A stretch of DNA of 19,457 nucleotides from positions 1 to 19,457 of the forward strand of contig JACCSL010001064.1 in the NCBI GenBank assembly GCA_013812995.1, written 5' to 3'. Below, piece after piece: positions 1,650 to 13,626 of the stretch. A model generated the notes under the pieces. That model was given only the letters and a program-made list of their open reading frames with translations. It was not told the DNA's origin and made no database searches. Position 1 is the stretch's first letter; each line of letters starts with the position of its first letter. The translations under genes and the position numbers were made by a program. Origin of the DNA: Ardenticatenales bacterium. Its GTDB lineage: Bacteria > Chloroflexota > Anaerolineae > Ardenticatenales > Ardenticatenaceae.

Positions 1650-3503
1650 ATGCTCTGTCCCCGTTGTTCGACAACTAACCCTGCAAACGCCAAGTTTTGC
1701 CTGAACTGTGGGACGACCCTCGCCAATCGCTGCGCCACCTGCCAGATGGAGTTGCCCGCCAACGCCCGTTTCTGCTTTAACTGCGGGCAGCCTGTCTCAG
1801 CCGTGACCCCCGTACATGTGGAGGAGGCTTCCGCCCCGAGTCTGGCAGCGCCCATACTCTCAGGTGAGCGGAAGATCGTCACGGCTCTTTTTGCGGATGT
1901 CGTGGGCTCTACCGCCCTGACGGAGCAGGTGAACGACGCTGAGGACTGGACCAGCATCATGAACGGCGCGTTCGACCGCTTCTCGCCCGTGGTGAGCCGC
2001 TATGGTGGAAATGTGTCGCGCCTTCTCGGCGATGCCATGCTGGCACTCTTTGGAGCCCCTGTTGCCCACGAGGATGATCCGGTGCGCGCTATCCACGCGG
2101 CGATGGAGCTCCTGGAGGTCACGCGGGAGTATGCGGTGGAGGTGAAGGAGCGGTACGGGATTCCCTTCGAGATTCGAATCGGCATCAATACGGGGCCTGC
2201 CGTGGTTGGTCCCGTCGGCAACGATCTGAAATCCGTCTACACGGCGATGGGCGATGCCGTAAACCTGGCCTCGCGCATGCAGTCCGCCGCGCGCCCCATG
2301 ACCACGCTCATCTCGGAGCACACCTATCGCTTTGTCGCGCCCCTCTTCGATGTGGCCGACCTGGGGCGCATCGAGGTCAAGGGCAAGAGTGAGCCCGTGC
2401 AGGTCTACGAGGTACGAGGCTCCAAGGCACAACCAGGGCGACTGCGCGGCCTTGCTGGCCTGGAGAGTCCGATGGTCGGGCGGGACCGCGAACTGGCGGC
2501 GCTGCTGAGCCTGAATGACGCGATCCCGGCGAGGCAGGGCGGTGCAGCGCTCGTCATCGGGGAGCCGGGCATTGGGAAGAGTCGGCTCATCGGGGAGTGG
2601 AAGGCGGCCGTCAGCGCGGGAGATCAGCCACCCCAGTGGGCAGAGGGGCACTGCCTCTCCTACGGGCAGGGGCTGGCGTATCACCTGCTCATCGACCTGC
2701 TACGCTCTGTGCTCGGGGTGCCCGCCACCGCCAACGAGAGCGAAACGCGCGTGTTGCTCCGCTCCCGTCTGGAAGAACTTTTCGATGGCGCGCTGCTGGA
2801 GGTGTACCCCTACCTCGGCCACCTCCTCTCCCTTCAACTGGAGGAAGAGGCCAGGGAGCCACTTCGCCTGCTCGACCCGCAGGCGCTCCAGGCCCAGTAC
2901 CTGGCCACCCTGCGCCGCCTCCTGCTCACCCTGAGTGCCCAGCGTCCCTTGATTCTTATTCTCGATGACATTCACTGGGCCGATCCCTCCTCCACCGAGC
3001 TCCTGGTCAGGCTGCTGCCCCTGGTGGCAGAGGCCCCGATTCTCTTCTGCTTTGTCACCCGCCCAGACCAGGATTCCGCAGGGTGGCGGCTGGTGCCTAT
3101 CGCGCGTGAGCAGCTGGGGGAAAAACTGGTGGAACTCTCCCTGCGCGCCCTCTCCGAGAGCGACAGTCGCCAACTGGTCTCCAACCTGCTAGAAATCGAG
3201 GAGCTCCCAGAGATCGTCCGAACCACGATTCTGCGCAAGGCGGAAGGCAATCCCTTCTTCGTGGAAGAGGTCATTCGCATGTTGATCGATCGCGGCGCGA
3301 TTGTGCAGGAGGCGCATCGCTGGGTCGCGCAGAAGGAGATCGAGGTGGTCGAGATTCCGGACACTCTTCAGGGGCTCCTGCTCGCGCGCATCGACCGCCT
3401 GCCGGAAGATGTCAAACATACCCTGCGCGTGGCCTCCGTGATCGGGCGGCAATTTTCCGTAAAGGTGCTGGAGCAGGTGTTGAACCAAAAAGGTGCGGGA
3501 TGA
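1650..3503 (+). CDS. Zinc-ribbon / class III adenylate-guanylate cyclase / AAA ATPase 'head', lacking its TPR tail
   Basis: This 617-residue cytoplasmic signalling protein starts with two zinc ribbons (C3/C6/C17/C20 and C28/C31/C42/C45). A class III nucleotidyl cyclase domain (about 72-240) has metal-binding Asp D83 (FADVVGST) and D128 (RLLGDAMLALFG), plus D202, N205 and R209 in GDAVNLASRM, so it appears catalytically complete. An AAA/STAND-type ATPase follows (about 275-560), with Walker A GEPGIGKS (K310) and Walker B LILILDDIHWAD (D439/D440). Substrate choice (ATP or GTP) is not proven. Family members usually run to about 1000 residues or more, with a winged-helix and TPR region after the ATPase. 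Here the frame stops at LNQKGAG just before that region, which resumes in the -1 frame at 3500 with an ATGA overlap. The gene is therefore split by a frameshift or encodes a separate head subunit. The start is supported by aaagg 8 bases upstream. Confidence 0.9.
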   Translation: MLCPRCSTTNPANAKFCLNCGTTLANRCATCQMELPANARFCFNCGQPVSAVTPVHVEEASAPSLAAPILSGERKIVTALFADVVGSTALTEQVNDAEDWTSIMNGAFDRFSPVVSRYGGNVSRLLGDAMLALFGAPVAHEDDPVRAIHAAMELLEVTREYAVEVKERYGIPFEIRIGINTGPAVVGPVGNDLKSVYTAMGDAVNLASRMQSAARPMTTLISEHTYRFVAPLFDVADLGRIEVKGKSEPVQVYEVRGSKAQPGRLRGLAGLESPMVGRDRELAALLSLNDAIPARQGGAALVIGEPGIGKSRLIGEWKAAVSAGDQPPQWAEGHCLSYGQGLAYHLLIDLLRSVLGVPATANESETRVLLRSRLEELFDGALLEVYPYLGHLLSLQLEEEAREPLRLLDPQALQAQYLATLRRLLLTLSAQRPLILILDDIHWADPSSTELLVRLLPLVAEAPILFCFVTRPDQDSAGWRLVPIAREQLGEKLVELSLRALSESDSRQLVSNLLEIEELPEIVRTTILRKAEGNPFFVEEVIRMLIDRGAIVQEAHRWVAQKEIEVVEIPDTLQGLLLARIDRLPEDVKHTLRVASVIGRQFSVKVLEQVLNQKGAG

Positions 3504-4135
3504 TTCATGGCCATCTGGGAACGCTAGAATCCTCCGGCCTAGTGCGGGTGGCGCAGATCGACCCGGAGCTGGAATATCTCTTCCGCCACGCCTTGGTTCA
3601 GGATGCCGCCTATGACTCGCTGCTGCGCCAGGCCCTGATGTACGGGGAGCCGTCCCTTGCGATGGCGCGCCAGTTCAACCTGCGCGAGCCGCTGGCCTAC
3701 ACGTTCAATGATCTCTATTACCTCTATCACGAGCTAGAGAGCGAGGCGAAGGCGGAGCAGACGCTGGAGGAGGTGCTCTCCCTCGTGGACGAGCTTATGG
3801 CCGAGAAGAGAATTTTGGGGGAGCGAACCCCTGCCTTTGCGCTGGCCCTGCATCTCAAGGCAGAGGCTTTGCTGGCGCAGGGCGCGCTGGCGGCAGCGCG
3901 TGAGAGCATGGAGGCTTCCCTTGCCCGAGCAGCGGGAATGCCCTGGCTTATGGCCATGCTCCTTTCGTCATTCGTTCAGCTAGAAACAGTGGCGGGCAAC
4001 GAAGCCAAAGCGATCTCCTATCGCAACGAGGCACGGACGCAGGTAGAACGACTCCTGGCGCAGTTGAGCCCCGAGCTGGGGTCAGCCTTTCTGCGCCTGC
4101 CAACCATTCAGACGGTGTGGCCCGTCCCGTCCTGA
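3500..4135 (+). CDS. Winged-helix/TPR tail of the cyclase protein, frame-split and internally deleted (tail A)
   Basis: This 211-residue ORF starts in a four-base ATGA overlap with the cyclase head and is preceded by aaaaagg six bases upstream, so re-initiation is plausible. Residues 5-44 (HLGTLESSGLVRVAQ to AAYDSLLRQ) are the winged-helix-like segment that normally follows the ATPase domain in one continuous protein. After Q44 (base 3631) the usual DRRRLHLAVGEALE continuation, present in the tail at 5054, is missing. The sequence passes straight into TPR-like helices (ALMYGEPSLAMARQFN) and a C-terminal end (LLAQLSPELGSAFLRLPTIQ) of the kind that closes these proteins. Full tails here are 579-590 residues, so about 370-380 residues appear lost from the middle. 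It may be a nonfunctional remnant or a short partner subunit. Confidence 0.7.
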   Translation: MIHGHLGTLESSGLVRVAQIDPELEYLFRHALVQDAAYDSLLRQALMYGEPSLAMARQFNLREPLAYTFNDLYYLYHELESEAKAEQTLEEVLSLVDELMAEKRILGERTPAFALALHLKAEALLAQGALAAARESMEASLARAAGMPWLMAMLLSSFVQLETVAGNEAKAISYRNEARTQVERLLAQLSPELGSAFLRLPTIQTVWPVPS

Positions 4136-4148
4136 CCTTGGGACGGGC
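4120..4148 (+). terminator. Hairpin spanning the stop codon of tail A
   Basis: A 9-bp perfect stem is formed by gcccgtccc (4120-4128) and gggacgggc (4140-4148). The TGA stop of the upstream ORF (4133-4135) lies in its 11-base loop. No run of T follows, so it is not a canonical rho-independent terminator. It could slow or attenuate transcription into the membrane protein gene at 4169, or protect the upstream message. Confidence 0.35.
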
Positions 4149-4168
4149 AGCCATTTAGAAAGGACCTC

Positions 4169-5038
4169 ATGTTTGGATCAACACGATCTTCTATTAAGCT
4201 CACCTCCGTCGCAATGCAACGACTCCTCCTTGTGGCGAGCATCCTGGTCTTCATGGCGGGCACCCAACTGTATGTGCTAACGGAGTACACCGACCGCTTC
4301 TTCTCCTGGACCATCAACCCGCCGCTTACCGCTGCCTTCCTCGGCGCTTCCTACTGGGCCAGCTTCCTACTGGAGTTTCTGGCATCGCGCAAACGCACCT
4401 GGGCCGAGTCACGCATCGCCGTCGCGCCGGTGCTGACCTTCACCACCTTGACTTTAATTGTCACGCTGCTTCATCTGGATAAATTCCACCTGGATACGAG
4501 CGCTCATGAGCCGATCACCATCTTCGCCACCTGGGCCTGGATCATCGTCTACGCGGTCGTGCCGCCCCTGATGTTCGCGGTGTTGCTCTTTCAAACCCGC
4601 CTCCCCGGCGCAGACGTCCCACGAGGCGAGCCGCTGCCCATCTGGATGCGGGGGCTCCTGGGCTTCCACGGCACGGTCATGGTCTTGCTAGGGCTGGCCT
4701 TCTTCGTGGCCCCCACCGCTGTGGCCCCGATCTGGCCCTGGACGCTCACTGCTCTCACAGGGCGCGCCGTTGGCGCATGGCTGCTGGGGCTGGGGATTGC
4801 GGCGCTCCAGGTGGTCTGGGAGAATGACTGGGCGCGGGTTCAGATCGCACTGGTGAGCTACCTGGGACTGGGCGTGCTCCACCTGATTGCCATGATGCGC
4901 TACCTCGGCCTCTTTAATTGGTCACAGGCGCGGAGCTGGCTCTACCTGATTTTCATCCTGAGTATCTTTGCGGTGGGCCTTTATGGAACATTGAGGGCGC
5001 GCCAGGTCGTCCCTACGGCGCTCCCTGAAGCCTCCTAG
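4169..5038 (+). CDS. Multipass membrane protein of unknown function
   Basis: This 289-residue integral membrane protein has about eight hydrophobic segments, for example LLLVASILVFMAGTQLYVL near the N-terminus and WLYLIFILSIFAVGLYGTL at the C-terminus. A Shine-Dalgarno sequence (agaaagga, 4157-4164) ends four bases before the ATG. I recognise no enzyme motif. The FSW...PPL motif (F45-W47, P51-L53), a later HLDKFHL segment and a PIWPW motif recall the membrane protein at 16269-17087 (FSW at 65-67, PPL at 70-72, HLKDFDF, APLIWVWPGDLL), so the two are probably distant paralogues. It sits between the broken tail A and tail B of the cyclase cluster, 15 bases before the next gene and in the same direction, so it is probably co-transcribed. 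It might be a membrane partner of that system, but nothing in the sequence proves it. Confidence 0.8.
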   Translation: MFGSTRSSIKLTSVAMQRLLLVASILVFMAGTQLYVLTEYTDRFFSWTINPPLTAAFLGASYWASFLLEFLASRKRTWAESRIAVAPVLTFTTLTLIVTLLHLDKFHLDTSAHEPITIFATWAWIIVYAVVPPLMFAVLLFQTRLPGADVPRGEPLPIWMRGLLGFHGTVMVLLGLAFFVAPTAVAPIWPWTLTALTGRAVGAWLLGLGIAALQVVWENDWARVQIALVSYLGLGVLHLIAMMRYLGLFNWSQARSWLYLIFILSIFAVGLYGTLRARQVVPTALPEAS

Positions 5039-5053
5039 AGAAGAGAAGAGACT

Positions 5054-6793
5054 ATGTTGACTCATCGGCACCCCCACCTCGCCCATCTGGAGCAATCCGG
5101 CCTGATCCGCGTTGCCCAGGTCGAGCCAGAGATAGAGTACCTCTTCCACCATGCTCTGGTGCAAGACGCTGCCTACGACTCGTTGCTCCGTCAGGATCGC
5201 AGGCGGCTCCATCTGGCCGTCGGCGAGGCACTGGAAGCGCTGTACAGCGACCAGCCCGGCGAGATGGCCCCGCTGCTTGCCTATCACTTCGCGCTGGCCG
5301 GGGATAAGCAGCGCGCGGTTCGATACTTTTCCCTGGCGGGGGAGTTGGCAGTGGCCGCCTATGCCAACAAAGAGGCGGAAGGGCACTATCGTGCGGCCCT
5401 GGAGCTGGTTGAGAGCGACGAGGAGCGCGCAGGGCTCCTGACCCGTTTGGGCTGGGCGATTCGCAACCAGGATTCGATCGAGAGCGCCATTCATCTCTGG
5501 CAGGAGGCAATTGACCTCCGGCGCGCCTTGGGGCAGGACGAAGAGGTGGCTACCCTCTACAGTATCGTTGCCCTTGCCGCCTGGCATATGGGAGATACCC
5601 CCCTCGGTCTCCAGCTATCTCTGGAGGGGCTGGCCCTTCTGGACGACAAGCCGGAATCGCCCGCGATGGCCTCTTTGCTGCACCAGACCGCGCGTGCCTA
5701 CTTCTTCAACGGCTTGCCAGAGGACGCGGGCGAGCTCTGTGTGCGCGCCCTGGCAGTGGCCGAGCGCGCCAACCGGATATGGCTCCAGGTGGATATCCTC
5801 ACAACGATGGGAATTCTCCCCCATTATGGGTTCCATCAAGCCGTAGCCTTCTTCAGCAGAGCGGCGGAGTTGGCAATGCGTCATATGGACTCACCCGCCG
5901 CCCCGACACGCGCCCTCTATAATCTGGGGGAGTTGTGGCTCCGGGCGGGAGAGTTTGACAAAGCATATGATTGCTTCATCCAGGGGCGCCATGGCATCGA
6001 GCAGGTTCGAGGCGTCTTTGGGGAGGTGTGGGGGTCTAGCCTGCTTGGCGTCTTGGCGCTCCTGAAGGGCGAGCTTGATCAGGTAGAAACCATGCTCCCC
6101 GCCCTATTTGAGAGAACCCGGACAATTGAGGATCCCGGTCCGGTTATATTTGCCCTGCAAGTCATCGAGGCCATGTTGTTGCTCTATCGCGGCCAGTGGG
6201 AGGAGGCGCTACTTTCCCTCCAGCTCTGTCAGGCGGAAACCCGCGAGCAGGGCGACCTACAGTTTTTGTCGGCGGCCTGTTACAGTCTGGCCGAAACGCT
6301 TCTGGAGCTTGGCCGGTGGGAGGAGGCCGCCTCAACCATCGCGGAAACCATTGCCCTGGCCGACGAGGGTCTTGGCTGGATCTGGGGGCGCGTGGCCGCC
6401 CGTCGGATCGCCGTCGTTGCTCACCTGGCGCTGGGCCAGGTGCCCGAAGCCCGACAACGGCTGACCGAGATGAGGGCCGTGGCAACCTACCCCGCGCTTC
6501 CCGCCGAGCAGGCAGACCTGGCCGTTTCCGAGGCCCGTCTGGCGCTGGCCGAGGGACGATGGCTGGAGGCCAGGGCCGCCTTTCAGACAGCCCACGATCT
6601 GCACAGCCAGATGGGCAAGCGTTGGTACGAGGCACGCGTGCTTTACGAACTGGCAGAGGCTCACCTGCAAAGGGCCATAGCCGACGATAAGACCGTGGCG
6701 CGTGAGTTGCTCAATCAAGCAGAGACGCTGTTCGAGCAGGTGGGTGCCCCATGCTACGCCCAGAAAGTGGCTGAGATGAAGAGCCTTGTTTGA
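5054..6793 (+). CDS. Headless winged-helix/TPR protein of the cyclase-AAA family (tail B)
   Basis: This 579-residue protein is made almost entirely of helical repeats. Residues 9-49 (HLAHLEQSGLIRVAQ through YLFHHALVQDAAYDSLLRQ) match the post-ATPase winged-helix segment of tail A at about three residues in four. DRRRLHLAVGEALE follows, then TPR-like repeats to the end (for example AVRYFSLAGELAVAAYANKE and LFEQVGAPCYAQKVAEM). There is no cyclase, Walker A or Walker B motif. The ATG is well supported by agagaagaga just upstream, and the neighbouring membrane gene ends 15 bases before, so no ATPase part is encoded directly upstream. In known family members this region belongs to one long chain with the ATPase. 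Here it would be a free scaffold or sensor subunit. Binding to the head at 1650-3503 is inference from shared ancestry and proximity. Confidence 0.82.
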   Translation: MLTHRHPHLAHLEQSGLIRVAQVEPEIEYLFHHALVQDAAYDSLLRQDRRRLHLAVGEALEALYSDQPGEMAPLLAYHFALAGDKQRAVRYFSLAGELAVAAYANKEAEGHYRAALELVESDEERAGLLTRLGWAIRNQDSIESAIHLWQEAIDLRRALGQDEEVATLYSIVALAAWHMGDTPLGLQLSLEGLALLDDKPESPAMASLLHQTARAYFFNGLPEDAGELCVRALAVAERANRIWLQVDILTTMGILPHYGFHQAVAFFSRAAELAMRHMDSPAAPTRALYNLGELWLRAGEFDKAYDCFIQGRHGIEQVRGVFGEVWGSSLLGVLALLKGELDQVETMLPALFERTRTIEDPGPVIFALQVIEAMLLLYRGQWEEALLSLQLCQAETREQGDLQFLSAACYSLAETLLELGRWEEAASTIAETIALADEGLGWIWGRVAARRIAVVAHLALGQVPEARQRLTEMRAVATYPALPAEQADLAVSEARLALAEGRWLEARAAFQTAHDLHSQMGKRWYEARVLYELAEAHLQRAIADDKTVARELLNQAETLFEQVGAPCYAQKVAEMKSLV

Positions 6794-6796
6794 GAT

Positions 6797-8569
6797 ATGT
6801 TGAAAAATCACCTACGCCTCCTGATACGTGCGGGTCTGATTCGTGAGAGCGCGCCTGCCCCTGCATCAGACTATCTCTTTCGCCATGAACTGATGCAGGA
6901 TGTTGCCTATCACTCTCTGCTGCGGGAGGATCGCGTGCGCCTGCACCACGCGGTGGGGGAGAGCCTGGAGCAGATCTATGCCGGGCAGTTGGAGGAGTTT
7001 GCCTCTCTTCTCGCTCACCACTTTTACGAGGCGAACGCCAAAGAGCAGGCATTCAAATACTATGCTCTGGCGGCAGCCCAGGACGCACGCAGCTATGCTA
7101 GCGAGGAAGCCATCTTTCACTACAACCGCGCCCTCGCTCTCATCCCCGACGAGGGCGTGGAAGCCGGGGTGCTGCTTGACCTCTACCTGGGACGCGGCCG
7201 TGTGCTGGAGGTGTGCGGCCGATACGAGGAAGCATTGGCCGGCTACCGGGAGTTACTCGCGTTGGCAAATGCAAGGGGCAACTCAGCGATGGAACTTGCT
7301 GCGCTTATGGCGGCGGCTACCCTGCTCTCTACGCCAAACCCCGTTTACAACCCAGAAGAGGGGGAGGCGACGCTGAAGCGCGCGCTCCAGATCGCGACCA
7401 TTCTGGGCAAGCGCGAGGCAGAGGCACAGATTCTCTGGACTCTGCTGCTCCTTGTCCAATATTCGGCAGGCGACCCCGAGCGCGCCATCGCCTACGGGGA
7501 GCAGGCCCTACAGATTGCACGAACCCTCCACCTGCGGGGACGGCTCGCCTACATTCTGAACGATCTGCCCAGCCCCTACTGGATCACCGGGCGGCTGGAG
7601 GAGGCCCGCGCAGCGCAACGCGAGGCGGGCCAGTTGTGGGAAGAATTTGGCAATATCCCCATGTGGGTAGACAACCTGGAGGGGCGCGCACGCTTCTGCT
7701 TCACCTGTGGGGAGTATGACGAGGCGATTCGCCTGACCGAGCAGGCCTTGTCCCTGAGCCGATCCATTGACCACAAGTGGGGGCAGGTGCAGAGCCGCTT
7801 CTTCGTGGGCCACGTTTACATAGACACCGGCCGTCTTGGCGAGGCCATATCCCTGATGGAGGAAGCCGCGCAGCTTGCCGAGGAGGCGGGCCATACCCCT
7901 GTCCGCCTGGCGGTAACCACAGACCTGGGCTGGCTATACGGTACGTTGGGCGCAGTAGAGGAAGGGTTGACCCTCGCCGCCCGCGCCCTGGAGTGGGCTA
8001 GACCCCGCTTCGGCTACCTGCAATCCTGGCCCCTGTCGATTATGGCACGTCTGTACCTGCTCCAGGGAAACCTTGCCGAAGCAGAACGCGCGCTCGCGGA
8101 AAGCAAGCAATCGTATACCTCGAACCTGGACCTGGTGCTTATCCCCGTCTCTCACATGCTGGCTGTCGGCGAGGTCGCCCTGGCCGCGCATCGCCATGAC
8201 GAGGCGCTGGCTGCCTCGGATGACCTCCTCGCCTATCTTCGCAAGACCCACACGCGCGTCTTTGTCCCGGATGCGTTCCTGCTCCGGGCGCAAACGCTCC
8301 TGGTACAGCGCCAGGAAGACGGTGCCCGCCCTGCCCTGGAGGAAGCCCTGGCTCATGCAGAGACACTTGGTTCCCGACGTATCCTGTGGCGCATTCTGGC
8401 GCTGCTCGGGGAGCTGGAGGAACAGCAGGGCAACCACGAGGCAGCGCATGCCCGACGGCAGGCGGCGCGAGAGCATATCACCTACATCGTCGAGCAGATT
8501 CACCTGCCCACGCTACGACAAACCTTCCTTACCTCGCCTCCCGTTCGGACACTTTTTGCAGATAGTTGA
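6797..8569 (+). CDS. Headless winged-helix/TPR protein of the cyclase-AAA family (tail C)
   Basis: This 590-residue TPR-repeat protein begins only three bases after the previous stop (TGA-ATA-ATG) with no clear ribosome-binding site, so translational coupling is likely. It opens at the same module boundary as tails A and B: NHLRLLIRAGLIRES, then DYLFRHELMQDVAYHSLLRE and DRVRLHHAVGESLEQIY. TPR-like helices with the usual W/L-G-Y/F-A-P pattern follow, and it ends in LPTLRQTFLTSPPVRTLF, a typical family terminus. It is clearly more diverged from A and B than they are from each other. No catalytic domain is present. As with tail B, the family role is oligomerisation or ligand sensing for a STAND-like ATPase. 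Use as a separate subunit is inference. Confidence 0.82.
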   Translation: MLKNHLRLLIRAGLIRESAPAPASDYLFRHELMQDVAYHSLLREDRVRLHHAVGESLEQIYAGQLEEFASLLAHHFYEANAKEQAFKYYALAAAQDARSYASEEAIFHYNRALALIPDEGVEAGVLLDLYLGRGRVLEVCGRYEEALAGYRELLALANARGNSAMELAALMAAATLLSTPNPVYNPEEGEATLKRALQIATILGKREAEAQILWTLLLLVQYSAGDPERAIAYGEQALQIARTLHLRGRLAYILNDLPSPYWITGRLEEARAAQREAGQLWEEFGNIPMWVDNLEGRARFCFTCGEYDEAIRLTEQALSLSRSIDHKWGQVQSRFFVGHVYIDTGRLGEAISLMEEAAQLAEEAGHTPVRLAVTTDLGWLYGTLGAVEEGLTLAARALEWARPRFGYLQSWPLSIMARLYLLQGNLAEAERALAESKQSYTSNLDLVLIPVSHMLAVGEVALAAHRHDEALAASDDLLAYLRKTHTRVFVPDAFLLRAQTLLVQRQEDGARPALEEALAHAETLGSRRILWRILALLGELEEQQGNHEAAHARRQAAREHITYIVEQIHLPTLRQTFLTSPPVRTLFADS

Positions 8570-8883: not shown

Positions 8884-9045
8884 CCACTCTCATAGTACAA
8901 CTCTTCCTAACGAGAGCGGATACTGACAGCAGCAGAGACAGCGAGCCGCCCCAGCGCGTTCCTGGCTCTGGTGGGCTTCGAGTGGACATACCGCACCGAG
9001 GGTCACGCCAACGTCTTCCTCACGGTGGATGATGCCACCAATGCC
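8884..9045 (+). pseudogene. PHP-domain gene fragment, paralogous to the interior of the next gene
   Basis: From about 8935 the plus strand reads ETASRPSAFLALVGFEWT and then YRTEGHANVFLTVDDA. The PHP domain of the downstream protein (bases about 11734-11900) reads EEASRPGEFLALVGFEWT and HRTEGHANVFLTADDA. By hand count 58 of 66 bases match between 8971-9036 and the corresponding stretch. Weaker similarity, with at least one frame change, extends left to an HSH motif near 8884. Similarity stops abruptly near 9045. The reading frame happens to run on into the downstream gene, so a start at the GTG at 8971 would be a false extension. Five of the seven changed codons are synonymous, suggesting the source gene was under selection before it was broken. 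Confidence 0.75.
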
Positions 9046-9147
9046 CGCCTTAAAATTTACGCACCAATCCACGATTTTCACCCAAGAGACGTTTTGCTGC
9101 TTCTGTTGGCATTTGGTTGTAGCAAATACTTTTTTGGGAGAACTCGG

Positions 9148-12100
9148 ATGAACACGTCTCGCTTGCTCACCTTCGTACTTGTCTTGCTCTGCGTGGCCTT
9201 GCTCACTACCCCTGCCTGGTCGCAGGGAAGCGAGGTGCGGCTGAATGAGTTTATGGCGGCTCCCCGATTCGTTGATTGGGATGGTGACGGCATCGCCAGC
9301 GCGGACGATGAATGGATTGAACTCCACAATTCCTCGGGCGCGCCGGTAGACCTCACAGGCTGGCAGCTCGATGACATCGAGGGGGGTGGCAGCGTACCGT
9401 ATGTGATTCCACCCGGTACTACGATTGACGCCGGGGGATTTCTGGTACTCTTCAAGTGGCAGAGTGGCGTCGCCCTGAACAATGGCAGCGACGATGTGCG
9501 GCTGCTTCGCCCGGATGGCACTGTGGCGGACATGGATCGATACCCATCGCAGCCCAACGATCAGAGCCGCGCTCGTGACGGGGCAGGAACCTGGCAGAAC
9601 AACCAGGTTCCTACCCCCGGCCAGCCCAATGTTCCTCCCCCTGCTGAGGCCCCAACCCTCACCCCTGTTCCCCCGCCCCTCACGCCAACCCTCACCGCGA
9701 CCTTGCCGCTGCCCGTAGAGACCATGCTTCCCTCGCCCACGGCGGAAGGAGAACCCATCTACACGGCGACACCCTTCCCGACCGAAACCATCACCGAGAC
9801 GCTTCCTACCCCTACAGAGAGCCCGACGCTGACGGCCATCCCCACGGAGACAGCAACGCCGCTGCCCTTCACCCTGCTCATCAATGAGTTTTTGCCAGCG
9901 CCCCGCGCGGTGGACTGGGACGGAGATGGAAGCGTTAACACCGACGACGAGTGGATCGAGTTCTACAACCCCCAGGCGTTTGCCGTGGACCTCTCAGGTT
10001 GGAAGGTAGACGATGTGGCCGGGGGTGGAAGCGCGCCCTACACTTTTCCGGTGGGAACCACCGTGGAGGCACGGGGCTTTCTCCTGCTGTTCCATCGCGA
10101 GAGCCGCGTGGCTTTGAACAATGGCAGTGACGATGTGCGCCTGCTTCGACCGGACGGGAGTGAGGCGATGCGGGCCTCCTACGGCAGCAGCCAGAATGAT
10201 GGCTCCTGGTCCCTTGACGATGTCGGAGGCTGGCAGAGCGATTGGACTCCCTCGCCGGGCCAACCCAACCAGCCACCCATTCCGACCCCCACGCCTGTTC
10301 CGACAGAGACACGCACACCCTCGCCCACGCGCACGCCCTCGCCCACGCGCACAGCGACGATGACAAAGACGCCCTCGCCCACGCGCGCGGCAACACTCAC
10401 CCGCACACCTCGCCCCACGCGCACAGCGAATCCCACGCGCACAGCGACGATGACGAAGACGCCCTCGCCCACGCGTACTGCAACGATGACCCGCACGCCG
10501 AGCCCCACCCGAACGCCTACCCCGACGCGGACGGCGACGGTCACGGCAATTCCTGGCCTGTCGCCCACCGCAACCGCGCTCCCTGAGGGTCTCCGGCTGA
10601 ACGAGGTCATGGCGCGCCCCGGTCAGGATTGGAATGGGGACGGGGTGGCAGACAGCAACGATGAGTATATCGAACTCATCAATCTGGCAGAGCAGCCGTG
10701 GAATCTCTCCGGTCTGCTGCTGGATGACGCAGCGGGCGGTTCCAAGCCTTTTGAACTCAGCGGTATCCTCGATGCAGGCGGCATCGCGCTGTTCTTTCGC
10801 AGCGAAACCGGCCTCGTGCTGAACGATAGCGGAGGCGAGAGCGCCCGATTGCTTTCACCCGCGAGCGAGCTCATTGACGAGTTTGCTTATACCAGCGCCG
10901 CCCGCGATGCGGCGTGGTCACGAGATGAAGATGATATATGGCACGAGGAGTGGCCCGCCTCGCCTGGTCTCCCCAACCAGCCCGCTGTCCCAATGCCCTT
11001 CCCGACTCCCGGCGCTGAGGTCAAGCTTCTCATCAGCGAGGTGCTCTATCATGGCACCATCGCCGGGCAGGGCGACGAGTTTGTGGAACTATGGAACCCC
11101 ACCGATCAGGTCATCAGCCTGGCAGGGTGGCGAATTGGCGACGAAGAGACAGAACTGGGCAATGAGGGAATGTATCGCTTCCCCGCAGACGCGCAGTTAG
11201 AATCGGAAGGCACATTGCTTATAGCTCGTCAGGCGGATGCCTTCTTCGTGCGCTTTGGGCGCTGGCCCGACTTCGCCTTCCGCGCCTCAGCCAGCGCCAA
11301 CGAGATACCATTGCTGGAGCGGGACGCCTCGTGGGGGAGTGGACACTGGTCGCTCACCGACACGGGCGACGAGGTACTGCTTCTAGACCCCTGGCAGCGC
11401 GTGGCAGATCGCCTCGCCTTCCGCAACGGCGACTTCGAGGCGCTAGGGCTCACCGGCCACGACATCTCGGCTACGGCTCCGCGCGCGATGCATCCGCTTG
11501 GCACGCTCCGCACGGATCACGTCAATGATTGGATCGTCTACGATCAACCCACCCCTGGCACGCCCTACACCATCCCGGAGAGTGTAGCGCCATCCCTTGG
11601 CCCGGATTTTGGCGGCCTGCGCGCCGCATGGGGTTCCCTTCACTCGCACTCGACCTACAGCGATGGCAGTGGTCCCGCCGAGTTGGCCTTCGCGGTGGCA
11701 CGGGCCAACGGAATGAACTTTATGGGGCTCAGCGATCATTCCCATTGGTATTCGAACCAGGAGCGAGATCGGATGCTGGCAGCGGCTGAGGAGGCCAGTC
11801 GGCCCGGCGAATTCCTGGCCCTGGTAGGCTTCGAGTGGACGCACCGCACCGAGGGGCACGCCAACGTCTTCCTGACAGCCGATGATGCCAGCCGCGAGCG
11901 CCCCGATGGCGAGAGCCTGGCAGCCTTCTATGAGTGGCTGGCTGAGCGACCAGAGGCCATCGCCACGTTCAACCATCCCTTTGAGGGGAATTTTGCCAAC
12001 TTCGAGCCAGAACCAGCGGTCCACTCGCAGGTCGTGGGGCTAGAGGTGGGCAACGGCTATGACAGCCGCTACCTACGCTTCGAGGAGGGCTACTGGCAGG

Positions 12101-13626
12101 CGCTCCGCCAGGGGTGGCATATCGGCGCGATGGGCAACCTTGATAGCGAGAGCGCTAACTGGGGAGCCGAGGGAGCGCTCCGCACAGGGGTCCTGCTGCC
12201 CACCCTGACGCAGGAGAATCTCATTGACGCCCTACGTGCGCGTCGCACCTTCGCCACGGAGGATGCCAATCTTGCGATTGTCCTGCGCTCCGGCGATGTC
12301 TGGATGGGGGGCACCGTCGAGTCCGGCACCCTTACCCTGTCCGTTCTCGTCAGTGACCCCGATGGGGAACCGCTACGGCTGGAACTGCTGCGCGATGGCG
12401 CGGTTCTCCAAAGCCAGGAACTCGTTGCCGGGGCCATGCCCCAGAGCTGGGAGCGGTCCGTGGATGCCCAGCCAGGAGACATCTTCGTGGCGCGCGTCGT
12501 GCAGGCCGATGGCGACTACGCCTGGAGCAGCCCCCTGTGGGTCGAAGGCGAGGCCGTGCCACCCGCGCTGCTCTTGACTGAGGTGCTCGCCGCGCCCAAA
12601 AGCGTGGACTGGGATGCGGATGGTGAGGCAACGTTCCGCGACGAGTGGATCGAACTATACAACGCGGGCGACCGCCCTATCTCCCTGGAGGGCTGGAAGC
12701 TACAAAAAGAAAGCTTTGGCTATACCTTCCCCGCGGATGCCACCATCGAGCCCGGCCAGTACCTCGTCATGCATCAGCAGGTGACAAAGCTTTCCCTCTC
12801 CAACACGGAGGAGACGATTCGCCTTATTTCTCCGGATGGGCAGGAAGTAGACAGTGTCCAGGTGACGTTCCAGGGATATGATCGCTCCAAGGCGCGCTGC
12901 GAGGGCATCTGGCAGGAGAAACGTACTCCCACACCGGGCGCAGGCTGCACGTTCATGGAAACACCGCCCTCAGAGGATGAAGAGGAAGAGGAGGAGGACG
13001 CCTCGCCTGATGCAACCCCGTCCATTGAGCCTATCGGCGATGCCCGCGCTCTGCCCGTGGAGAGCCGCGTCACCATCGAGGGAGTAATCATTGCCCAGCC
13101 AGGAACCTTCGACGCCACAAGCCTGTATGTACAGGATGATACGGGAGGCATTCGGGTCTATAGCAAGACGGGACTGGAGGGGCTCAAGGTGGGGGATCGG
13201 GTCCGCCTGACGGGCTACCTCAAACTGCATTATGGCGAGGTGGAACTGAGTGTTCCCGCCTCGAAGCCTGTCGACCTCCTGGGGCGGAGCGAGATTGTTC
13301 AGCCCCTCGTCATCGAACCCGGTAGCCTGAGCGAGCATCCGGGGCAACTGGTGCAGGTGGTGGGCCGCGTCGAGGGCTGGCGTGGGGAGAACTGGTTCCT
13401 TGATGATGGCGTCGAGAGCCTCTACATCTACCATGACCGCGAAACAGGGGTAGCGCGCCCCGACCTCAAGCGGAGAGAAATCCGCTCCGTCGTCGGCATC
13501 GTCGGCTGGAGCGAGGCGGGGCCGCGTCTCATGCCCCGCACACCCGGCGACCTCACCCCGCCCTCCGGCGGCGGCGCGAGCGACGATGGCTCACCGCCCC
13601 GCTTCCTCCCGAATACGGGGAAGTAG
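9148..13626 (+). CDS. Secreted multi-domain protein: five lamin-tail domains, PHP phosphoesterase domain and OB-like domain
   Basis: This 1492-residue exported protein starts at ATG 9148, because a signal peptide (MNTSRLLTFVLVLLCVALL to AWSQG) begins there and gggag lies 7 bases upstream. Approximate order: LTD1 28-160; Thr/Pro linker; LTD2 242-372; Thr/Pro/Arg linker 377-478; LTD3 481-615; LTD4 626-810; PHP domain 830-1050 with HSHSTYSDG, SDHSH, EGHANVF, FNHP and GNLDSE; a beta-rich stretch to ~1136; LTD5 1140-1265; an acidic linker; an OB-like domain from ~1292 (VTIEGVIIAQPG, LYVQDDTGGIRVYS, GDRVRLTGYL). PHP domains are metal-dependent phosphoesterases. Lamin-tail domains in secreted bacterial proteins often accompany nucleases or surface enzymes. 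The likely role is extracellular phosphate-ester or nucleic-acid hydrolysis, but the substrate is unknown. Four LTDs carry a DxDxDG acidic loop. The chain ends LPNTGK, a sortase-like pentapeptide with no following hydrophobic segment. Confidence 0.85.
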   Translation: MNTSRLLTFVLVLLCVALLTTPAWSQGSEVRLNEFMAAPRFVDWDGDGIASADDEWIELHNSSGAPVDLTGWQLDDIEGGGSVPYVIPPGTTIDAGGFLVLFKWQSGVALNNGSDDVRLLRPDGTVADMDRYPSQPNDQSRARDGAGTWQNNQVPTPGQPNVPPPAEAPTLTPVPPPLTPTLTATLPLPVETMLPSPTAEGEPIYTATPFPTETITETLPTPTESPTLTAIPTETATPLPFTLLINEFLPAPRAVDWDGDGSVNTDDEWIEFYNPQAFAVDLSGWKVDDVAGGGSAPYTFPVGTTVEARGFLLLFHRESRVALNNGSDDVRLLRPDGSEAMRASYGSSQNDGSWSLDDVGGWQSDWTPSPGQPNQPPIPTPTPVPTETRTPSPTRTPSPTRTATMTKTPSPTRAATLTRTPRPTRTANPTRTATMTKTPSPTRTATMTRTPSPTRTPTPTRTATVTAIPGLSPTATALPEGLRLNEVMARPGQDWNGDGVADSNDEYIELINLAEQPWNLSGLLLDDAAGGSKPFELSGILDAGGIALFFRSETGLVLNDSGGESARLLSPASELIDEFAYTSAARDAAWSRDEDDIWHEEWPASPGLPNQPAVPMPFPTPGAEVKLLISEVLYHGTIAGQGDEFVELWNPTDQVISLAGWRIGDEETELGNEGMYRFPADAQLESEGTLLIARQADAFFVRFGRWPDFAFRASASANEIPLLERDASWGSGHWSLTDTGDEVLLLDPWQRVADRLAFRNGDFEALGLTGHDISATAPRAMHPLGTLRTDHVNDWIVYDQPTPGTPYTIPESVAPSLGPDFGGLRAAWGSLHSHSTYSDGSGPAELAFAVARANGMNFMGLSDHSHWYSNQERDRMLAAAEEASRPGEFLALVGFEWTHRTEGHANVFLTADDASRERPDGESLAAFYEWLAERPEAIATFNHPFEGNFANFEPEPAVHSQVVGLEVGNGYDSRYLRFEEGYWQALRQGWHIGAMGNLDSESANWGAEGALRTGVLLPTLTQENLIDALRARRTFATEDANLAIVLRSGDVWMGGTVESGTLTLSVLVSDPDGEPLRLELLRDGAVLQSQELVAGAMPQSWERSVDAQPGDIFVARVVQADGDYAWSSPLWVEGEAVPPALLLTEVLAAPKSVDWDADGEATFRDEWIELYNAGDRPISLEGWKLQKESFGYTFPADATIEPGQYLVMHQQVTKLSLSNTEETIRLISPDGQEVDSVQVTFQGYDRSKARCEGIWQEKRTPTPGAGCTFMETPPSEDEEEEEEDASPDATPSIEPIGDARALPVESRVTIEGVIIAQPGTFDATSLYVQDDTGGIRVYSKTGLEGLKVGDRVRLTGYLKLHYGEVELSVPASKPVDLLGRSEIVQPLVIEPGSLSEHPGQLVQVVGRVEGWRGENWFLDDGVESLYIYHDRETGVARPDLKRREIRSVVGIVGWSEAGPRLMPRTPGDLTPPSGGGASDDGSPPRFLPNTGK
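10311..10548 (+). repeat. Low-complexity repeat encoding a Thr/Pro/Arg linker
   Basis: Imperfect tandem units of about 18-21 bases, built on acgccctcgcccacgcg and cacagcgacgatgac, encode PSPTRT/ATMTKT-type peptides between LTD2 and LTD3. The protein segment is an extended, probably O-glycosylated spacer as seen in many secreted Chloroflexota proteins. The near-identical units could change copy number by slippage. Confidence 0.8.

Follow-up and report, generated by a model that had tools for sequence, protein, structure and literature searches.

A 19,457-nucleotide (nt) contig of an Ardenticatenales bacterium (JACCSL010001064.1, our contig C385; its full length is called the window here) carries a gene for a cyclase-ATPase protein, the head, and three separate genes for tetratricopeptide repeat (TPR) proteins, tails A, B and C, and the break between head and tails falls inside a winged-helix domain. 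We consider it likely that they form a two-part signalling system of the STAND type (signal transduction ATPases with numerous domains), in which the tails serve as alternative sensors that complete the half winged helix of the head in trans. The initial annotation had proposed the four open reading frames (ORFs), which are present at the positions given in Table 1. According to it the head stopped just after the ATPase; it does stop before the TPRs, but it includes the first half of the winged helix and is cut within that domain. As described there, the three tails open with a methionine and a few residues followed by a common segment, which is more diverged in C. This common start stands, but each tail holds only the second winged-helix half, and tail A is internally shortened. 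Tail A overlaps the head by ATGA and a 3-nt gap parts B and C, but an ORF for a probable membrane protein lies between A and B, and the tails are therefore not simply consecutive. Among the three readings offered, a split receptor with alternative TPR sensor subunits is supported as the best fitting, because headless tails starting at the boundary and heads ending at it each form a family.

The cut was located by comparison with a fused head-tail-SpoIIE protein of 1521 residues from genome G002, which belongs to the same subfamily and is 59% identical to the window head. An AlphaFold2 model of 588 residues of this relative (51-row alignment) had a mean predicted local distance difference test score (pLDDT) of 91.9. 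Its winged helix consists of a helix (349-361), a strand (364-366), a second helix (367-374), a loop (375-381), a third helix (382-392) and two wing strands (396-400 and 406-409). The domain is continuous across the cut, with block pLDDT values of 81-93 over residues 371-410. The window head terminates at the position of the loop that links helices 2 and 3, and the tails open just before the counterpart of helix 382-392. The NCBIfam model TIGR03903, a one-chain kinase/cyclase of 1267 positions, was matched by the head at 282-804 and by tails A, B and C from positions 810, 810 and 807, which gives the same cut position without any structure. All scores (head 230.1, A 22.1, B 55.8, C 65.3 bits) were far under the model's cut-off of 705.75. 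One-chain relatives thus exist, as had been stated, in this model and in the G002 protein. The order expected of a STAND protein, with a P-loop ATPase first, then a winged helix and then a repeat sensor, is found in the window's head-tail set as a whole and in none of its chains singly, and the winged helix is not contiguous with the ATPase in one polypeptide, since the cut lies between helices 2 and 3. When tail B was modelled alone (AlphaFold2, 18-row alignment), block pLDDT was 46-57 for residues 1-30, 66 for residues 31-40 and mostly above 90 beyond, and no wing strands were formed. The N-terminus of tail B is thus modelled poorly alone, and the equivalent stretch of the fused model confidently, which suggests that the half winged helix of a tail needs its partner.

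Both edges are conserved in homologues, and the cut recurs in many Chloroflexota. Among the best 120 of 5628 head matches (7999 candidates scored; the window's own head included), 119 ended 2-11 residues past the helix-2 motif VIGRQFxVxVLExVL, and the sole exception, P0203, is named as partial. Head homologues of similar length were 61-71% identical. For tail B, the best 120 of 325 matches (B itself included) were compared. A YLFRH-type anchor lay at most 60 residues from the start in 77 of them and at positions 23-28 in 70; these 70 start at the boundary, and headlessness with the same start, a check proposed beforehand, was thereby found in homologous tails. Of these, 41 had 800-870 residues, the size range of the tails that end in a SpoIIE phosphatase. 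Only proteins between 0.55 and 1.75 times as long as the query are admitted by the search. This design disfavours full-length fused proteins, and the weight lies on the sharpness of the start rather than on the proportion. The starts of the database proteins were called by others and give independent support for the boundary. In our own gene maps, a start codon just before helix 3 with no in-frame upstream ATPase was found for A, B and C and for 64 further candidates in the loci retrieved; these include at least one fragment at a contig edge (L090). On these sequences the coincidence of head end and tail starts is beyond chance, because both are conserved in homologues.

Some heads are followed by more than one tail. 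Arrays comprise six tails in L135, five in L202, three in L136, L137 and the window, and two in L032, L140 and L150. The 18 steps from tail to tail measured -4 nt (5), 2-28 nt (10) or 111-181 nt (3). In L140 (8093-13125), two tandem tails behind one head each carry a C-terminal SpoIIE phosphatase, all with 4-nt overlaps. Tails also occur apart from heads. One split head was found in the window's genome together with five boundary-start tails, namely A, B, C and one each on C949 and C334; the latter two lie next to divergent genes and reach the ends of their contigs. Genomes G071, G047 and G026 have unlinked tails (L214, L143 and L139) besides linked ones. In 150 genomes of the class (tails at E 1e-40, heads at E 1e-100, eight candidates each scored per genome), all eight in which boundary-start headless tails were found (G000, G026, G047, G049, G071, G103, G118 and G143) also had a split head. 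G143 is the least sure of them, with a 17-nt overlap and a head outside the main clade. Frames of 967 and 979 residues in G128 and G056 and of 879 and 966 residues in G085 and G024 were left out of this count.

These observations bear on a simple fission, in which the head and the first tail would form a fixed two-subunit receptor and further tails would be idle copies or belong to other partners. We regard this as unlikely, though it is the strongest of the alternatives. Arrays with up to six full-length tails, usually of different lineages, speak against it, as do unlinked tails in split-head genomes (whole genes in L143, L199 and L214, genes that reach a contig end in L141 and L142). In its favour, each of the ten clusters opened beyond the class of the window (L180-L189) pairs one head with one tail, and tail A is shortened. 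Residues 2-44, 44-99 and 83-206 of tail A align with 3-45, 228-283 and 459-584 of the 588-residue tail L027_10044. Because this alignment skips two stretches, tail A is by comparison a shortened tail that has lost both in frame.

Head and tail are joined in a characteristic manner. In 31 distinct adjacent pairs (less than 400 nt apart, duplicates removed, some close relatives; window included) the distance was -4 nt in 23 and -1 nt in 2, with single pairs at -17, -14, 6, 16, 113 and 195 nt. Outside this count are L052 and L137 (broken head), L202 (a gene between), L135 (gap above 400 nt), L203 (tails well apart from the head) and L026 (tails before the head). The 4-nt overlap leaves tail A in frame -1 relative to the head, and a fused head-tail A chain could then arise beside the separate parts through stop readthrough or a programmed -1 frameshift. 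We judge this very improbable. No in-frame X XXY YYZ heptamer was present within the last 12 codons at any of the 23 junctions with this overlap, whereas a Shine-Dalgarno-like motif preceded the tail start at 18 of the 23, against 0.23 in tail bodies, a count possibly inflated by the codons of conserved helix 2. Such a product could not serve tails B and C or unlinked tails. The order in L026 is tail-tail-head, and in G533 the head stands on one contig without an adjacent tail and the sole detected tail on another, which together exclude ribosomal frameshifting as a general route.

That ordinary fused genes were broken by frameshifts or pseudogene decay, or only look broken through sequencing or assembly errors, can practically be dismissed. 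The assembly is a draft, tail A has in-frame internal losses, L200, L201 and L209 are broken at other points and the split heads L052 and L137 are broken, all of which would be expected from such causes. However, the identical boundary recurs across many assemblies, the overlap is exactly 4 nt in 23 of the 31 pairs, and the accidental-looking breaks are located elsewhere than the boundary. Random decay had been considered improbable from the start, and the conserved boundary in homologues bears this out. Head, tail A, the membrane ORF and tails B and C all show a coding-type GC pattern by codon position. For 25 listed close tail pairs from other genomes, the ratio of nonsynonymous to synonymous substitution rates (dN/dS) was 0.11-0.27. 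Several pairs are repeats, owing to loci that were retrieved two times. Every pair stems from clusters with a single tail; multi-tail arrays are not represented, and tails B and C had no relative close enough for pairing. Purifying selection thus acts on the tails of single-tail clusters in other genomes.

Several candidates were set aside on opening. Possible extra split heads in G051 (L200) and G126 (L201) proved, like the tail-like frames in G082 (L209), G145 (L210), G047 (L149, L211), G075 (L212), G006 (L213) and G026 (L215), to be fused, broken elsewhere or without the module. A double-cyclase ATPase protein on C448 of the window's own genome (L208, 1770-4337) ends after the wing, has no TPRs and lies near a contig end; its break is a different one.

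A quick head tree was calculated from 139 segments reaching from the ATPase to helix 2 (35 split, 104 fused; the unclassified C448 row was dropped). In this tree, 34 of the 35 split heads fall into one clade of 46 rows (Shimodaira-Hasegawa-like approximate likelihood ratio support, SH-aLRT, 100). Intact full-length genes at orthologous places, named in advance as the outcome that would speak against a split, were seen only as the 12 fused rows nested in this clade. The split/fused label requires 5 changes, at least 3 of them on starred branches, versus 31.6 when shuffled. The simplest account of this tree would be one split followed by several re-fusions; several independent splits are not excluded by it. 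In L204, L205 and L150 (genomes G118, G026 and G103), a fused full-length paralogue directly adjoins the split head, a possible hint at origin by duplication.

The tail tree, also a quick one, comprised 65 of 67 distinct tails, two below 400 residues being omitted. Tails of one array were usually from different lineages (L135: 6 changes for 6 rows); single clades were formed in L035, L140 and L150. The five Blastocatellia tails of L035/L202 are consistent with recent tandem duplication, and the pairs of L140 and of L150 also group. Because arrays mix tail lineages, transfer of entire tail genes from cluster to cluster seems to have occurred in the course of evolution. Within the window, tail B is placed with the SpoIIE tails of L140, and A and C lie in another clade. 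A collapsed tandem array, another of the original readings, is therefore unsupported for this genome, as is an origin of the three tails by recent tandem duplication. The tails had been described as no recent duplication, and the tree agrees. Tails A and B share 79% identity across 42 residues and C is more diverged; the N-terminal modules of all three are diverged at the DNA level. This divergence also argues against cassettes at the DNA level, with recombination joining various tails to the head inside one population. We give this idea almost no credence even though tails of one array are usually of different lineages and fused and split forms interchange over evolution; only the movement of whole tails over evolution seems indicated.

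Spread of the system into Acidobacteriota is doubtful. In a scan of 247 genomes (five candidates scored per genome), such a head was found at E 1e-130 in a single genome, the one that holds L035 itself. The tail of the gp7 locus L041 is 94% identical to that of a Chloroflexi locus, and mis-binning is therefore possible. The head of L202 (2752-5835), from a Blastocatellia bin, has 1027 residues with an N-terminal extension; protein kinase domains are present in its 1032-residue homologue P0222.

The head is probably an adenylate cyclase, judged from its catalytic domain (PF00211, 3.7e-26) and residue pairs, which are those of class III. In 15 aligned heads from the 120 listed, D83 and N205 were invariant and D128, K194, D202 and R209 nearly so; we take these to be the metal-binding Asp pair, the Lys/Asp specificity pair and the Asn-Arg pair of the class. 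The fold of the fused relative was closest to 8bob from the maltose system (presumably MalT), archaeal PH0952 (6mfv) and Apaf-1 (3sfz), and when the PDB was searched by sequence with the profile of the fused form, the matches listed (60 of 78) were TPR-type proteins. In the proposed mechanism, the head would combine the cyclase with a nucleotide-switch ATPase and stop past helix 2 of the winged helix. A tail would dock by completing this domain: the head would supply helix 1, strand 1 and helix 2, and the tail helix 3 and both wing strands. By analogy with 8bob, PH0952 and Apaf-1, the TPRs may keep the switch off until a ligand binds them, and would then control the cyclase through the ATPase. 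Several tails would provide alternative sensors for one output, since one docking piece and one head are common to them. What we infer from this arrangement is that tails dock physically, compete for the head and can be swapped, as well as the signal input and the cyclase output. More tentatively, at somewhat less than even chances, the locus may encode a combinatorial receptor, a half-folded cyclase-ATPase head completed by any of several TPR tails, some with SpoIIE output.

Several observations weigh against tails acting as alternative sensors of one head. Co-variation of the tail N-terminal module with the head beyond the tail body (52 tails, 34 loci) was weak, with a partial r of 0.29 and a permutation p of 0.02. 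The tail body also correlated with the head (0.34), and the 35 same-array pairs were barely closer than expected (mean residual -0.05, standard deviation of others 0.11). Heads and fused paralogues coexist, and tails might act on other partners. The one-tail clusters outside the class indicate that tail swapping is not general, and the unlinked tails all come from draft assemblies. Our gene maps chose the start codon nearest the boundary by rule, within a set range, so that they alone are no proof of it. Finally, the low pLDDT of the tail N-terminus may partly come from the shallower alignment (18 versus 51 rows).

The features of the window are listed in Table 1. The source assembly is a draft of 5.03 Mb in 1069 contigs, 83.6% complete, and the top named matches of the tails were mostly Chloroflexota. 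The gene order is head, tail A (ATGA overlap), membrane ORF, tail B and tail C. The zinc ribbons, PF00211 and PF13191 of the head were all above cut-offs, and TPR families of Pfam were matched in tails B and C. Tail A had no Pfam match at E 0.01, and the membrane ORF none in Pfam or NCBIfam. An ORF of the same length, 289 residues, lies between head and first tail in L202 and is unrelated; from its sequence it resembles an NAD(P)-binding protein of the NmrA type. A promoter and terminator scan did not help to delimit operons. Immediately 5' of the head, in the same orientation, a histidine kinase (HATPase_c) and a LuxR/NarL-type response regulator overlap by 4 nt (positions 2-1500). Around the stop of tail A, a perfect 9-bp inverted repeat, GCCCGTCCC...GGGACGGGC, spans 4120-4148 with no T run after it. 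A 1551-residue ORF (8971-13626) has repeated DEWIELxN-type segments and Thr/Pro-rich linkers and looks lamin-tail-like by eye.

Table 1. Position and content of head, tails and associated elements in the window
Feature	Position	Strand	Content or basis
Head	1650..3503	+	Two zinc ribbons, class III cyclase PF00211, AAA_16/STAND ATPase PF13191, first winged-helix half
Head C-terminus			Ends in ...VIGRQFSVKVLEQVLNQKGAG, then stop
Winged-helix half of head (helix 1, strand 1, helix 2)	3396..3500	+	Comparison with fused AlphaFold2 model
Shine-Dalgarno-like AAGGTG	3490..3495	+	Within last head codons, directly 5' of tail A ATG; sequence
ATGA, tail A start and head stop	3500..3503	+	4-nt overlap
Tail A, 211 residues	3500..4135	+	Second winged-helix half and TPR-type remnants, two in-frame internal losses
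Probable membrane protein, 289 residues	4169..5038	+	Family unassigned; between tails A and B
Tail B, 579 residues	5054..6793	+	Second winged-helix half and TPR array
Tail B helix 3 and wing segment	5054..5152	+	Low confidence in tail-alone model
Tail C, 590 residues	6797..8569	+	Second winged-helix half and TPR/MalT-like array; 3 nt past tail B
Tail C helix 3 and wing segment	6797..6886	+	

In the literature searched by title and abstract opening, no paper describing this split was found, and priority is not established on that basis. If the combinatorial receptor is real, the cell would plug different sensors into one second-messenger enzyme through complementation of winged-helix half-domains. 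A conserved natural cut in the winged helix with arrays of possibly exchangeable tails would part the sensor from the switch and make input specificity modular. It would also offer a ready-made split system for probing signal transfer through the winged helix, with the fused relatives as built-in controls.

Among the closest known arrangements is the TOMM system kinase/cyclase fusion protein of TIGR03903, whose successive parts are matched by head and tails. That model is one chain, whereas two or more are present here, and the window head has no N-terminal kinase. Fused proteins with cyclase, ATPase, winged helix and TPRs, encoded in related genomes as well as in the same ones (that of G002 is an example), have these domains too, but with head and tail in one frame. 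STAND switches such as MalT, Apaf-1 and the plant NLRs combine sensor, switch and output in one chain. The winged helix is unbroken in MalT, PH0952 and Apaf-1; in contrast to these STAND ATPases, it is divided here between two genes. Mammalian soluble adenylyl cyclase, ADCY10, is alike in that an ATPase and a repeat region follow the cyclase, but it differs in being a single chain with two cyclase domains.

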